From positions 1 through 23,297 of the IMG/VR virus record IMGVR_UViG_3300044237_002694: a stretch of 23,297 bases of DNA; one strand, 5' to 3'. Of the stretch, positions 5,314-16,548 are shown piece by piece (position 1 is the first letter of the stretch; each line of letters begins with the position of its first letter). The notes beneath the pieces were generated by a model. The model was not told the DNA's origin. It did not search any database and saw nothing but the letters and a program-made list of their open reading frames with translations. The DNA comes from a virus. Made by a program: the position numbers and the translations under genes.

Positions 5314-5841
5314 ATGAAAAAATCAGAATTAAGAAAAATAATTAGAGAAACTATAAAAGAACAAGCAATAGATCAATTTGGGGGAACTTCAGGTTTTGGT
5401 CCTATGACAGATCCACAAACTTTTGGAAATATAGCAGGTGGAACTAATACTGGTATGTCATTTGGTGTTGGTGATCAAGAACAATTACCAGCAACCACTA
5501 GTTACACGGATTTTATAGCGGCCAATCCAGGCGTAGAAGGACAATTTGATGACGCAGGAACTTTTAATGCAGAAGTTTTTTTCAGTAATTTTTCTGAAAA
5601 GGTAGCAAACGCACAAAATCCATGTAATTTTTTAAAAAACCAATCTGATAATTTAGCTTCTAAATATCCAACAGCTGGTAGAAAGTATAAGTCACAATTA
5701 TTTATGAAAATCTTTATAATGAATACTTTGGCAATGAGTTTTTATGGTTGCGGAATGTTACCATCAACTCCAGTAATTTTTGGAACTCTTGATCTCGGAC
5801 AAGCGGGCCCACAGAATCCTAATATTTCAGTTAGCGAATAA
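5314..5841 (+). CDS. Leader-bearing protein with a C-terminal CNF module
   Basis: The 175-residue protein begins MKKSELRKIIRETIKEQ, a charged amphipathic leader shared with five other genes here. The leader ends in I-K-E before Q, matching (L/I)-x-E prohead-protease sites. A Gly/Thr/Asn-rich segment (residues 22-80) follows, then the module F84...NPCNF (102-106)...Y144-G-C146 shared with the proteins at 6556, 13745 and 14634. This copy is the most diverged: it lacks the tryptophan before CNF and has only one other cysteine, the paired C146. There is no classical signal peptide. Function unknown; a virion-associated protein is inferred from the leader and neighbourhood. Confidence 0.6.
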   Translation: MKKSELRKIIRETIKEQAIDQFGGTSGFGPMTDPQTFGNIAGGTNTGMSFGVGDQEQLPATTSYTDFIAANPGVEGQFDDAGTFNAEVFFSNFSEKVANAQNPCNFLKNQSDNLASKYPTAGRKYKSQLFMKIFIMNTLAMSFYGCGMLPSTPVIFGTLDLGQAGPQNPNISVSE

Positions 5842-6555: not shown

Positions 6556-7677
6556 ATGAAAAAGTCAGAATTAAGAAATATAATTAAAGAGTCAATCAAA
6601 GAATTGATGAATGAACAATCCCAATATCCGGGATTTGATTTAACAAATCAAAACCAGATAGGTACTTTATATAACCAAGCACTCGCATTATCAACTTTTA
6701 CAGGAATTGTAGATTTGGAATTTTCAACTGGAGCTACTAATAGTTATTCTAAGGTTGCTTGTTATTCTTCTGATGCTGTAAATTGTGTACCTACAGCTCT
6801 TCCAGATTATAACACCTTAGCAGGAATGCAATCTTTGATAGATTGGAGGGTCTGTATATCTCAACATAGCGTTCCATGTCAAGTAGGAGATCTGGTTAAG
6901 ACAACTTTTAATATGAACCCTGCTAATCTTCCAAATTATGCGAATGCAAGTGGAGCATGTGTAGTAAATGTCACTCAAGCTTCCTATTCAGGTCAACCTG
7001 TTACAGGAGGACATACCAATTTCCTAGTTGTAGATGACATCAACGGGCAATGTTCTAATATAACACCAGGTTGTACAGATTCAACAGCTAATAATTATGA
7101 TCCTAATGCTACAGTAGATGATGGTTCTTGTGATTTTGGACCAGGTTCCTTAGGAATAACAGGAAATTATACAGTATTCAATTACCCATCAGGGTTTGAT
7201 GTTACAGATTGGACAAATAATTTTGTTGATATGATTATGAACCATCCAAACCCATGTAATTTCTTAGTACAAAGAATAATCCAATTCTATACAGCCCTAG
7301 GTAATCAAATTTCCTTTGATATAAATGGTAATATATTTAACCCACAAGATTTAATTGTTGGACCACTTCAAGCTAATATGCTAATGCAAAAATTAGTAGT
7401 GTGTGTAGAATTATATAACCAACTATGTGCTGGAATACAAGAACAAAGTGGAAACATTAGTCAAATTATCCAAACTGCTAAAAACATTAAAATGGATCCT
7501 AAAATTGGGGGTATAGTTAAACAAGCTGTTATTAAACTTAGAGATAAAATGAGTAAGCCAGCAGACCCTAAATTAGACAGAATGCAAAAACTAGCAGGTA
7601 TTCCTGCGGATAAACCAATGGACAAACCGATGGATAAACCAATGGATAAACCAATGGATAAACCTGAAGAAAAATAA
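6556..7677 (+). CDS. Leader protein with GCTD motif, CNF module and DKPM tail
   Basis: At 373 residues this is the largest of the leader family. The leader MKKSELRNIIKESIKEL runs into L18-x-E20 (LMNE, then Q). A cysteine-containing region (about 60-165) follows, then G172-C-T-D...NYDPNA...DDGSC192, a motif common in Bacteroidota secreted proteins. The CNF module covers F214-C291 (NPCNF at 232-236). Residues 300-350 are helical and end with DRMQKLAGIP, and the tail is about five tandem DKPM repeats. No signal peptide or membrane helix is visible despite the extracellular-type motif. It overlaps no neighbour and begins 2 bases after the previous stop. Function is unknown; a virion or ejected protein is inferred. 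Confidence 0.6.
   Translation: MKKSELRNIIKESIKELMNEQSQYPGFDLTNQNQIGTLYNQALALSTFTGIVDLEFSTGATNSYSKVACYSSDAVNCVPTALPDYNTLAGMQSLIDWRVCISQHSVPCQVGDLVKTTFNMNPANLPNYANASGACVVNVTQASYSGQPVTGGHTNFLVVDDINGQCSNITPGCTDSTANNYDPNATVDDGSCDFGPGSLGITGNYTVFNYPSGFDVTDWTNNFVDMIMNHPNPCNFLVQRIIQFYTALGNQISFDINGNIFNPQDLIVGPLQANMLMQKLVVCVELYNQLCAGIQEQSGNISQIIQTAKNIKMDPKIGGIVKQAVIKLRDKMSKPADPKLDRMQKLAGIPADKPMDKPMDKPMDKPMDKPEEK
7609..7664 (+). repeat. 12-bp tandem repeat encoding DKPM
   Basis: Four full 12-base units of GATAAACCAATG (the second unit carries two substitutions) and a partial fifth are in frame at the 3' end of the gene at 6556. They encode consecutive Asp-Lys-Pro-Met units. Length variation between relatives would be expected from slippage. 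Confidence 0.9.
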
Positions 7678-10287: not shown

Positions 10288-10443
10288 ATGTGTATGTCTG
10301 GAATTCATTATTTAGAAGAAGAAATAATAAAAGAAGAAATAACAAAAGAGGAAAACAACGATGAAGTTGATCCTAAATATATTTGCTATTATTCAAATTT
10401 ACCCTCAGTATTAAATTATCAAGAAGACGACGATGATGAGTAA
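10288..10443 (+). CDS. Very small acidic protein, 51 residues
   Basis: An open frame of 51 codons begins one base after the previous stop and ends inside the start of the membrane protein gene. The product is strongly acidic (EEEIIKEEITKEENNDE and a QEDDDDE end) with two cysteines. Its tight fit between two genes supports it. No family is recognised. Confidence 0.45.
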   Translation: MCMSGIHYLEEEIIKEEITKEENNDEVDPKYICYYSNLPSVLNYQEDDDDE

Positions 10444-10793: not shown

Positions 10794-11156
10794 ATGAGTT
10801 TAAGATCAGATAAATTTAAAGGACAAACAGGAAAGTACAACACAGTATTTAATGCACTAGTTAGAAGGTATGGATATAAAAATGCTAAATATATTCAACA
10901 AAGTTCAAATTATGAAATTATATGTCAAGATTTAACTAGATTAGCTAAATATTGGAAAGATTATAAAAACCAAAATGTAACACATCCTAACTATAAAGTT
11001 CCAGCTTGGTATGGAATGACAGAAGAAATGAAAGAAAAATTAAAAAATGAAAATAAAAGGCTTGTTACAGCTTACGAAACTGATTGGTTAAATAACCAAC
11101 TAGATAAGGGTAAATCACACAAATTATTAAAATATTTTAATTCTTTTAAGACTTAA
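10794..11156 (+). CDS. Basic unknown protein, 120 residues
   Basis: This basic protein has many Tyr, Lys and Asn residues (NALVRRYGYKNAKYIQQ, LAKYWKDYKNQN) and a helical Lys/Glu-rich C-terminal half. No membrane helix or motif is apparent. It is the last gene before the HSP20 unit; the next 85 bases hold the hairpin and inverted repeat described below. Confidence 0.5.
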   Translation: MSLRSDKFKGQTGKYNTVFNALVRRYGYKNAKYIQQSSNYEIICQDLTRLAKYWKDYKNQNVTHPNYKVPAWYGMTEEMKEKLKNENKRLVTAYETDWLNNQLDKGKSHKLLKYFNSFKT

Positions 11157-11171
11157 ATATATGTATATGTG

Positions 11172-11182
11172 ATTGACTGATC
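11172..11182 (+). repeat. Left arm of inverted repeat flanking hsp20
   Basis: ATTGACTGATC here is the exact reverse complement of GATCAGTCAAT at 11676-11686, so the two arms bracket the HSP20 gene. It partly overlaps the local hairpin at 11178-11198. Confidence 0.7.
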
Positions 11183-11198
11183 GATCTTAGGACGATCA
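11178..11198 (+). promoter_or_regulatory. Small hairpin in the hsp20 5' leader
   Basis: TGATCG (11178-11183) and CGATCA (11193-11198) form a 6-bp stem with a 9-base loop, 43 bases before the hsp20 ATG. It shares bases with the left arm of the long-range inverted repeat, so the two pairings exclude each other. A regulatory role is only a suggestion. Confidence 0.35.
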
Positions 11199-11241
11199 AC
11201 AACAATAAATTTTAGAATTATTAATTAAAAACAGTTTACCA

Positions 11242-11664
11242 ATGGGAACAATTTTATTACAGAGACATTTCTCACCGCTTGACATTCTAGTCAAAAATTT
11301 CTTCCAAGACGAAGAACAATTTCAACAACCAAATAACAGAATTTTAAATCACCCCGTAGATATCTATGAAGATAAAGAAGGTTTATACTTTGATATTGCC
11401 TGTACAGGTTTAACAAAGAAACAAATCGAACTTAAAGTTGAAGATGATGTTTTAAGGGTATCTTATACTAAAAAAGATAAAAGTGAAGATGAAGATCTAC
11501 ACATTTATCATTCAGGTATTGCTAAACGTAGCTTTAATTTAGGATGGAAAATTGCTAGACGATTTGAATTAGCTAAAATTGAAGCAACAATGAAAGATGG
11601 GTTATTGAAACTATTTATCCCACTTACACCTGAAAGCAAACCAAAATCAGTTTCAATTAAATAA
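11242..11664 (+). CDS. HSP20/alpha-crystallin small heat shock protein
   Basis: The 140-residue protein has an alpha-crystallin domain at about residues 37-130: HPVDIYEDKEGLYFDI, the IELKVEDDVLRVSY strands, and the hallmark A-x-x-x-D-G-L-L-x-L-x-I-P-L (residues 115-128). A C-terminal V-S-I (137-139) fits the I/V-x-I/V motif that docks on a neighbouring subunit. Small heat shock proteins hold unfolding proteins in an ATP-independent way and are frequent in T4-like marine phages, where a role in capsid assembly or host stress has been suggested. The gene stands apart as a single unit with its own leader, flanking inverted repeat and terminator. Confidence 0.92.
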   Translation: MGTILLQRHFSPLDILVKNFFQDEEQFQQPNNRILNHPVDIYEDKEGLYFDIACTGLTKKQIELKVEDDVLRVSYTKKDKSEDEDLHIYHSGIAKRSFNLGWKIARRFELAKIEATMKDGLLKLFIPLTPESKPKSVSIK

Positions 11665-11675
11665 GTTTTAAAAGA

Positions 11676-11686
11676 GATCAGTCAAT
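11676..11686 (+). repeat. Right arm of inverted repeat flanking hsp20
   Basis: GATCAGTCAAT, 12 bases after the hsp20 stop, pairs perfectly with ATTGACTGATC at 11172-11182. With a two-base bulge the pairing extends by four more bases (AAGA with TCTT). Confidence 0.7.
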
Positions 11687-11729
11687 TATTCCTCGTTAAA
11701 TAAATAGGTTATGTCCATTTTAAGTAATT

Positions 11730-11760
11730 AAGGATTGGTTTGAGGAGCCAATCCTTTTTT
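11730..11760 (+). terminator. Rho-independent terminator after hsp20
   Basis: AAGGATTGG (11730-11738), a nine-base loop and CCAATCCTT (11748-11756) form a 9-bp stem followed by a run of T, 66 bases beyond the hsp20 stop. It separates this unit from the leader-protein block that follows. Confidence 0.85.
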
Positions 11761-11783: not shown

Positions 11784-12365
11784 ATGTTTGCATTAGGAAT
11801 ACCAAAAAGACAATACAGGAGAACTACTCAGGTTTTAGGACCTTATATGTCAACTCCTACAAGCTATGATGCTGTAAAACAGGATGATGGTTTTTATCTT
11901 TTTACTTTCCCAGATGCTGACGAAGATAAATTTAGAGATATAGTTAATTTACTAAAAAGAAATGGTATAACAACTATTGGAGCTGATTCTCAATTAACAG
12001 AACAAAAAATTATGAAACTAGCAGATTTAATTAAAGAAAGTAATTTAATAGATTTAAAACCTTTAAAAGAACAAGGATTTGATGATAGACTTAAAGCAGC
12101 AGGTGGTTTTAGTGATGAAGAATTTGCAAGTATGACTGCTACAGATCCAAGCCCATTTATGGATGATGATGATGATAGATCTCCAGGAGAAGAGCTCGCT
12201 GATAGAACAATAGAAAAATTAAGACAACAGTATAGAGGTATGTCTGATCAAGATATGGATGATTTTTCTGTTGCAATGATAAAACATTTTTTAGATAATG
12301 TAGAAGCAAAAAATTATGCTAGAAAAAATCTAAACACAACAACTAGCAGATTAGATACTTTATAA
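11784..12365 (+). CDS. Unknown acidic protein with possible internal leader start
   Basis: This 193-residue protein has an N-terminal part (1-76; FYLFTFPDADEDKFRDIVNLLKRNG) and an acidic C-terminal part with a run of five Asp (127-131) and a helical end. Residues 77-97 (MKLADLIKESNLIDLKPLKEQ) resemble the leaders of neighbouring proteins. The ATG at 12012 has the aattATG context seen at many starts here, so a shorter 117-residue product beginning there is possible. Its stop shares TAATG with the next gene. No family is recognised; it opens the leader-protein block after the terminator. Confidence 0.5.
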   Translation: MFALGIPKRQYRRTTQVLGPYMSTPTSYDAVKQDDGFYLFTFPDADEDKFRDIVNLLKRNGITTIGADSQLTEQKIMKLADLIKESNLIDLKPLKEQGFDDRLKAAGGFSDEEFASMTATDPSPFMDDDDDRSPGEELADRTIEKLRQQYRGMSDQDMDDFSVAMIKHFLDNVEAKNYARKNLNTTTSRLDTL

Positions 12366-15712: not shown

Positions 15713-16270
15713 ATGATTAAGTTATCAAACATATTAACTGAAGCTCAAGCATCAAAAGAACTTTGGTATCATATTAAAAATAATATTTCACTTGAAGAAT
15801 GTGTGTTTAGATATGGTTCTAAAAAATATTTTTTATTAATAAATGAAGCTAAAGCCCTAATGAAAGAGGGTATTGATTTTGATAATCAAACAAAAGCATT
15901 ATTAGAAACAGATTTAGGTGAATTTGGAATATTTGAAGGTGAAGAAGTACCTTTAGATTTTCCCTTAATAACAGAAAAGAAAAAGAAAAAGAAAAAAGAT
16001 CCTCCAATTGGAAAACCAAAACGAGGAGGTCCTAAAGCGTATTATGTTTATGTCAGAGATCCTAAAACAAAACGTATTAAAAAAGTTACATTTGGTTCAG
16101 GTGGTTTAAGAGCAAAAATTAATAATCCAAAAGCTAGAAAAGCTTTTTCTGCTAGACATAATTGTCCTCAAAAGAAAGACAGAACAAAAGCATCTTATTG
16201 GTCTTGTAGACTACCAAGATATGCTAAACAATTAGGCTTATCAGTTAAAAATCCAGGTGGATTTTGGTAG
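15713..16270 (+). CDS. Lysine-rich protein with RARHN/YWSC basic tail
   Basis: The 185-residue protein starts MIKLSNILTEAQ (leader ending L8-T-E10 before A). Residues 15-85 are helical and mixed charge. A run of seven Lys follows immediately after I87-T-E89. The tail (96-185) reads GPKAYYVYVRDPKTKRIKKV, then KAFSARHNCPQKKD, ASYWSCRLPRYAK and ends GGFW. Tails with the ..F.ARHNC...YWSC.. pattern are, to my memory, frequent in T4-like marine phages without known function. Cleavage after L/I-x-E would free a 96-residue basic, two-cysteine domain. An internal DNA-binding virion role is inferred. Confidence 0.6.
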   Translation: MIKLSNILTEAQASKELWYHIKNNISLEECVFRYGSKKYFLLINEAKALMKEGIDFDNQTKALLETDLGEFGIFEGEEVPLDFPLITEKKKKKKKDPPIGKPKRGGPKAYYVYVRDPKTKRIKKVTFGSGGLRAKINNPKARKAFSARHNCPQKKDRTKASYWSCRLPRYAKQLGLSVKNPGGFW

Positions 16271-16281
16271 AAATTAAGTTT

Positions 16282-16548
16282 ATGAAAAAATCAGAATTAA
16301 AAAATATAATTAGAGAACAAATATTTGAAATTCTAACAGAAAAACTTTGTAAAAGAGGTAAAGCATATATAGCTAGTAGAAAACGTAAAGGAGAAAAACA
16401 TAATCCTTTTTTAGCAGCAAGAGCAGTTAAAGTTTGTAAAGGTCAAATTAGAGGCGTTAATAAAAAAATGAAAAAAGATTTTAGACCAAGCAAAGGAAAA
16501 TCTAGATCAGCACAAGGAAGAAAACCAGATATTATAAAAAATAAATGA
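16282..16548 (+). CDS. Small basic leader protein with two-cysteine motif
   Basis: The ATG at 16282 gives MKKSELKNIIREQIFEI, a good family leader; a TTG 18 bases upstream lies within the previous gene's end and is unlikely. The leader ends L18-T-E20, and the mature part would start KLCKRGKAYIASRKRKG. C23 and C52 bracket a basic segment ending AVKVCKG, comparable to the tail of the protein at 13131 (IVKCRKG). The last 36 residues are Lys/Arg/Ser-rich and likely disordered. The 88-residue size and charge fit a small DNA-binding capsid protein. Confidence 0.55.
   Translation: MKKSELKNIIREQIFEILTEKLCKRGKAYIASRKRKGEKHNPFLAARAVKVCKGQIRGVNKKMKKDFRPSKGKSRSAQGRKPDIIKNK

Follow-up and report, generated by a model that had tools for sequence, protein, structure and literature searches.

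The window, by which we mean the whole 23,297-nt stretch of viral DNA analyzed here (positions 1 to 23,297 of IMG/VR record IMGVR_UViG_3300044237_002694), carries a gene for a small heat-shock protein, hsp20, flanked by two sequences, ATTGACTGATC upstream and GATCAGTCAAT downstream, each of which occurs a single time within the window (Table 1). The earlier note, made from the sequence alone, had described these as an inverted repeat with a bulged extension, a local CGATCA partner for the upstream arm and a terminator further downstream, and we found these features at the locus as described. The long-range helix, which we call P1, extends outward to 14 pairs including two G-U pairs, and inward, beyond a short bulge, by TCTT/AAGA. 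The local partner forms a leader hairpin (TGATCG/CGATCA) that shares nucleotides with the 5′ arm and is a competitor of P1. The whole-transcript MFE fold of the window closes P1. The letters of the tentative second hairpin copy are the same in three relatives (L012, L014 and L149), and this copy therefore has no covariation support. Further upstream, a 120-aa ORF (10794-11156) between the ORF at 10433 and hsp20 is absent in L012, in which the preceding gene directly adjoins the promoter of hsp20.

Table 1. Features of the hsp20 locus, numbered from the first nucleotide of the window.
Feature	Position	Strand	Remarks
Promoter-like TATGTAT	11160-11166	+	Immediately 5′ of the P1 5′ arm
P1 5′ arm (long-range helix)	11169-11182	+	Core ATTGACTGATC at 11172-11182
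Leader hairpin TGATCG-A-TC-TTAG-GA-CGATCA	11178-11198	+	Unpaired A at 11184; match to model R1, 25.8 bits, E 0.008
Tentative second hairpin copy, A/T-only, AATAA-A-TT-TTAG-AA-TTATT	11204-11222	+	Folding probability 0.08 at 37 °C
hsp20, small heat-shock protein of 140 aa	11242-11664	+	PF00011, E 5e-13; phrog_432
P1 3′ arm, in the 3′ UTR	11676-11689	+	Core GATCAGTCAAT at 11676-11686
Intrinsic-terminator-like hairpin	11730-11756	+	3′ of the P1 3′ arm; 1 found vs 0.5 expected

Judged without relatives, the window's own helix is weak evidence. The window contains 12 perfect inverted repeats with arms of 11 nt or longer and a spacing of 300-700 nt, compared with 2-29 (mean ~13) in 30 dinucleotide shuffles, and the length of the repeat by itself is thus at the background level expected of a chance inverted repeat. 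When flank was compared with flank in the window, 65 of 5000 shuffles attained 11 or longer, and under gapped scoring the observed score was equalled by 1 of 60 shuffles. Strong evidence came instead from relatives, among which P1 is conserved and covaries; for the family taken together chance is refuted, and we regard its probability as negligible.

Relatives were gathered by scanning IMG/VR with the Hsp20 protein and a small alignment, which returned 8 and 80 loci, and later 16, 5 and 36, many of them repeated; a scan of genome contigs for Hsp20 relatives yielded a single related contig from a MAG and a single distant gene from a phytoplasma. We removed L013 (a copy of L012) and L015 and L016 (which came without upstream DNA) from the 80 loci, and merging near-identical flanks reduced the resulting set, which numbered 79 once the window and L008 were counted, to 49 loci. 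Another 21 were added after the same dereplication, and three distant Hsp20s without the structure (L105, L107 and L150) were set aside as outgroups, giving 67 loci. One of these, L149, was included in the loop tally, the arm-swap test and the own-shuffle test, and was left out of the promoter/terminator, competing-hairpin, motif-anchored and G-U/A-C tests, which therefore cover 66 loci.

Across the 49 dereplicated loci, P1 pairing scores had a median of 39.0 and a minimum of 23.5. Shuffled flanks, by comparison, gave a median of 17.5 and a maximum of 35.5 (n = 735), which 37 of the 49 loci exceeded, and windows shifted along the same contigs gave a median of 17.0 and a maximum of 29.5 (n = 271). 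Held against 60 shuffles of their own, the flanks of 66 of the 67 loci paired better than at least 57, and those of 62 loci better than all 60; shuffles scoring as high numbered 1 for the window, 2 for L012, 3 for L022, 1 for L123 and 51 for L149. The pairing scores of arms with their own partners summed to 2374 over the 67 loci, compared with 1417 ± 42 (maximum 1584.5) in 10,000 reassignments of the 3′ flanks. Lastly, when flank pairing was scored for 778 ORFs on five contigs, hsp20 was the top gene in 5/5, with scores of 42.5, 48.0, 44.5, 37.5 and 32.0 against 95th percentiles of 22.0-24.0; the best other gene in the same contigs scored 35.0, 26.0, 28.0, 32.5 and 26.5.

The arms themselves show how this pairing has been kept. 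In L002/L012, the nearest full-length relative, both arms are identical to those of the window, and in L014 (TTGACTGATT/AATCAGTCAA) the core carries a two-sided compensatory change at its inner end. Very different letters preserve the pairing in L024 (TATAACCTAAGGGCGC/GCGCCCTTGGGTTATA), L008 (GACTCGAGAGCG/CGCTCTCGAGTTT), L095 (GACCCCAGAGCG/TGCTCTGGGGTTT) and L087 (ACTTTAGGGAGCA/TGCTCCCTAAAGT), and the long arms of L143 are unrelated in sequence and still pair. We also placed the arms by sequence motifs rather than by pairing; 27 of the 66 loci lacked the 3′ anchor motif. In the 38 distinct loci anchored in this way, 72.7% of cells were paired vs 62.9% (maximum 66.8%) with swapped 3′ arms, and two-sided changes numbered 141 vs 74.8 (maximum 100), both figures being raised by some pairs that the anchor motifs fix. 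In 34 of these 38 rows, two-sided changes occurred at 10 of 13 P1 pairs (counts that ignore kinship), and the covariation score, which is not tree-aware, was 0.471 vs 0.236 ± 0.018. Covariation of the arms had been set beforehand as the test that could refute the idea, and both the swaps and the two-sided changes showed it; the suggestion that the ends of the hsp20 mRNA could pair is borne out by the same covariation.

Inside P1, symmetric scoring gave 80 G-U pairs vs 31 A-C over 66 loci, an excess which indicates that the structure belongs to the sense RNA. The comparisons show that the predicted P1 helix joins the leader to the 3′ UTR and places hsp20 in the loop of a panhandle, and we consider the repeat almost certain to be an RNA element that acts in cis on the hsp20 mRNA, and not a DNA repeat. 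Its carriers are a large lineage of T4-like phages known only from uncultured material. L149 has kept the gene and the leader and has lost the 3′ arm, with another gene downstream; the same alternative downstream gene is found in L004, whose upstream flank is not covered.

We considered these results together with the genomic context of the block, since the earlier note had also raised the possibility of a gene cassette with remnant recombination ends. We identified gp23 in 6 of 10 contigs, and the cultured phage closest in capsid and polymerase (68%) is Flavobacterium phage immuto, which has the order polA-groES-groEL with hsp20 absent between. L008 and L100, on the other hand, have polA-hsp20-groES-groEL with arms. 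Because immuto is without the whole block where these two carry it, the promoter-arm-hsp20-arm block is, as far as these genomes indicate, gained or lost as a unit at the polA/groES site, and in this sense the cassette idea, along with the proposed check that hsp20 and its arms might be absent as a block, was upheld. The arms, however, do not behave as recombination or transposon ends: they vary between lineages yet pair with their own partners, they show the G-U excess on the sense strand, and L149 lost its 3′ arm and retained the gene, observations on which we rejected recombination ends. In addition, the promoter-like motif lies outside the 5′ arm, so that the arms are not the edges of the block, and so far the arms appear to lie inside the transcript and no target-site duplications are seen. 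A reading at the level of DNA is thus highly improbable, close to negligible, in spite of the block that immuto lacks as a whole. The phage-encoded hsp20-groES-groEL cluster beside a family A DNA polymerase lies at 3001-5427 in L008 and at 1201-2801 in L100. Ten hsp20 genes from cultured cyanophages and pelagiphages (~23-37% identity) are likewise phage-encoded in T4-like phages but differ in being without P1, which was clearly above shuffles in 0/10 of these loci (the best, S-CREM2, had 3.5% of shuffles as high).

We then located the arms relative to signals for transcription and translation. In 58 of 66 loci vs 44 of 2000 random sites, a promoter-like TATTTAT or TATGTAT motif precedes the 5′ arm by at most 30 nt, mostly by 2-8 nt; the message therefore probably begins at this arm, the start site being inferred from the motif. 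P1 usually ends 25-70 nt upstream of the start codon, its 3′ arm comes shortly after the stop codon, and the next ORF begins 5-57 nt past P1 in 56 of 66 loci. A run of at least 4 T after the helix occurred in 20 of 66 loci vs 223 of 2000 random sites; it is enriched and not general, and we therefore rejected P1 as a general intrinsic terminator. A conserved RTG-ATA-TGA mini-ORF spans the hsp20 start (-5 to +4 nt) in 29 of 67 loci, and could serve in translational coupling.

With flanking helices of 11-25 bp or longer and the next ORF so close behind, P1 might instead be a processing stalk, i.e., an RNase III substrate that excises the hsp20 message from longer transcripts in the manner of rRNA stalks. 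Many of the helices are, however, shorter than two turns, the promoter-like motif usually stands directly 5′ of the arm, so that no 5′ cut is needed, and the leader hairpin would be left unexplained; we consider such a stalk distinctly unlikely.

To describe the leader hairpin, we used a descriptor that requires a stem of 3 bp or more, followed on its 5′ strand by a single unpaired A, and then two base pairs closing a loop of 4-5 nt. It was present in 49/49 leaders, compared with a mean of 17.7 and a maximum of 28 in shuffled leaders (200 rounds), and with another unpaired base it was present in 2 (C), 6 (G) and 12 (T) leaders. The descriptor is loose, matching 548 of 1688 other segments, and the count of 49/49 is therefore not decisive by itself. 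The decisive test was a search of IMG/VR (2.9 million viral contigs) with a degenerate leader DNA pattern that is independent of both the protein and P1. This found 15 stretches, 2 of them near-copies of known loci and some of the others alike; an Hsp20 ORF follows in 15/15, and P1 was present in 15/15 (its score being reached by no more than 2 of 100 shuffles). In a hairpin alignment (A2) that retained 49 of 68 segments after A/T-only, clearly spurious and near-copy segments were dropped, two-sided changes were seen at 6/6 pairs, the rows having been picked by the descriptor. Taken with the arm comparisons, these alignments show that P1 and the predicted bulged-A hairpin both keep their pairing despite sequence change. 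The commonest hairpin loops were UUAG (39) and UUCG (10), followed by UAAG (6) and GUAA, GAAA, CUAG and CGAG (4 each).

A covariance model of the hairpin, R1, gave 7 matches at E ≤0.2 in 748 kb (the window plus five contigs), all of them hsp20 leaders and distributed over the window and 4/5 contigs; on the fifth, G004, the hsp20 leader was missed at E up to 10. Matches in the same 748 kb from E 0.44 upward resembled chance, and a phage-wide hairpin regulon was accordingly rejected. The core A-YY-NNAG-RR was also found within the P1 5′ arm in 53 of 66 loci vs 3% of random 25-mers, so that many leaders carry the motif twice, with the first copy inside P1. Rfam release 15 had 0 matches in the window and, over 10 loci, just 2 matches at E 1.4-1.9, far under gathering scores, on which basis a known Rfam family was rejected for the window and these loci. 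The RegA profile PF01818, a possible binding factor, had no match in 10 contigs, and neither had control profiles. In the MS2-type operator, a coat-protein dimer binds a stem with a 5′-side unpaired A, 2 bp and a 4-nt loop. The hsp20 leader hairpin resembles this operator in layout only, and differs in its UUAG, UUCG and GNRA loops and in belonging to a dsDNA phage.

The earlier note had suggested a temperature- or end-dependent RNA switch, and we folded 14 chosen loci at 10, 37 and 50 °C. P1 had a probability of 0.77-1.00 in 14/14 loci at 10-50 °C, and is thus the conformation that the full-length mRNA favours in silico over this range. For the window at 37 °C, P1 reached 0.99 and the hairpin 0.00 with the 3′ arm, and the local hairpin reached 0.91 without it. 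Hairpin probabilities with and without the 3′ arm were 0.00 and 0.97 in L082, 0.25 and 0.80 in L022, and 0.00 and 0.52 in L008; in L014 the hairpin rose from 0.00 to merely 0.25. In the window and some relatives, then, the 5′ arm is predicted to refold into the bulged-A hairpin if the 3′ arm is missing. P1 and a hairpin coexist, however, in the folds of L024, L056, L087, L103 and L069, and the strict descriptor detected a hairpin competing with P1 in only 19 of 66 loci, which means that the switch cannot be general. The end-dependent part of the suggestion thus held in these models for the window, but it applies to some members of the family and not to others.

The temperature-dependent part did not hold. 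That P1 stays unmelted in the predicted folds of all 14 loci makes a thermometer unlikely for P1, and the hairpin lies far upstream of the start in most loci. What recommends an RNA thermometer, besides the identity of the gene as a heat-shock gene, is that in some clades the 3′ strand of a hairpin carries an SD-like AGGAG or AAGGA near the start codon, and the start-proximal hairpin of such SD-using clades is predicted to weaken with heat (L066, 0.87 at 10 °C and 0.18 at 50 °C). SD use above control was nevertheless absent in 4/5 contigs, and we judge a thermometer to be very improbable.

Taken as a whole, an RNA element that controls stability or translation by means of a 5′-3′ panhandle is the reading towards which we lean slightly; its function specifically in mRNA stability or the timing of translation is a plausible but tentative assignment. 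We propose that during transcription the hairpin would hold the 5′ end of the mRNA, and that once the 3′ arm is synthesized P1 would form and close the message. Closed P1 may then protect both mRNA ends against end-dependent decay and so set the amount of Hsp20, and the bulged-A hairpin could be where a protein or the ribosome docks. A more speculative and rather improbable version is that a dedicated factor, possibly Hsp20 itself, binds the bulged-A leader hairpins, the first of which would be erased on panhandle closure, so that the mRNA would report both its completion and the level of its product.

Pairing between the 5′ and 3′ parts of one message has been described in the hok/aapA toxin mRNAs, in which a long-distance interaction joins the two ends and a local 5′ fold may come first (PMC6733600), and in the icaR mRNA of Staphylococcus aureus, in which pairing of the 5′ and 3′ UTRs covers the Shine-Dalgarno region with a UCCCC motif (PMC3868564). 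By analogy with these precedents, P1 could be an off switch, the paired mRNA being silent and stable until trimming of its 3′ end releases the leader and so activates translation. The topology is the same as in hok/aapA, and the predicted 5′ folds of the window, L082, L022 and L008 depend on the 3′ arm. Yet P1 usually stops short of the start codon by the distance given above, so that a block of initiation is not required, and there is no known reason for a silent chaperone; we consider an off switch unlikely. The hok/aapA mRNAs also differ in having a toxin ORF with an overlapping antisense RNA, whereas here the ORF encodes an Hsp20 chaperone of a T4-like phage, the bulged-A hairpin covaries and P1 is mostly not over the start site. 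The hsp20 5′ arm differs from that of icaR in lying at the probable mRNA 5′ end and not at the Shine-Dalgarno sequence, with its sequence free to change, and the hsp20 3′ arm in lying close behind the stop codon. We thus place the element topologically closest to hok/aapA and icaR without claiming membership. The leader pseudoknot of T4 gene 32, which is bound by gp32, is similarly a structured leader upstream of the start region in an mRNA of a T4-type phage, but with another fold and without a 3′ UTR partner (PMC3014915).

No published account of this hsp20 RNA element was found in the open-licence literature, and the comparisons point to an undescribed RNA control element of a viral chaperone gene, one that would add to a gene widespread among viruses. 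Few single cases are known of UTR-UTR pairing within one prokaryotic or phage mRNA; here such pairing persists across dozens of phage lineages while its sequence changes, and it is tied to one gene. The element offers a testable system for the role of end-to-end pairing in stability or the timing of translation, and the bulged-A hairpin a handle for seeking a binding partner.

Several other observations were made in these contigs. On the reverse strand of contig G006, the gene at 43496-43906 has the second-best flank pairing in its contig (32.5) and is not A/T-rich. In the window, the C-terminus encoded by ORF 6556-7677 contains MDKP repeats. An N-terminal peptide like MKKSELRNIIKESIKELMNEQ is common to otherwise different ORFs at 5314, 6556, 13745, 14634 and inside 16264-16548, with weaker versions at 12365, 15323 and 15713. 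The internal proteins of T4 carry a capsid-targeting leader, and by analogy the MKKSELRNIIKESIKELMNEQ-like peptide could be such a leader.
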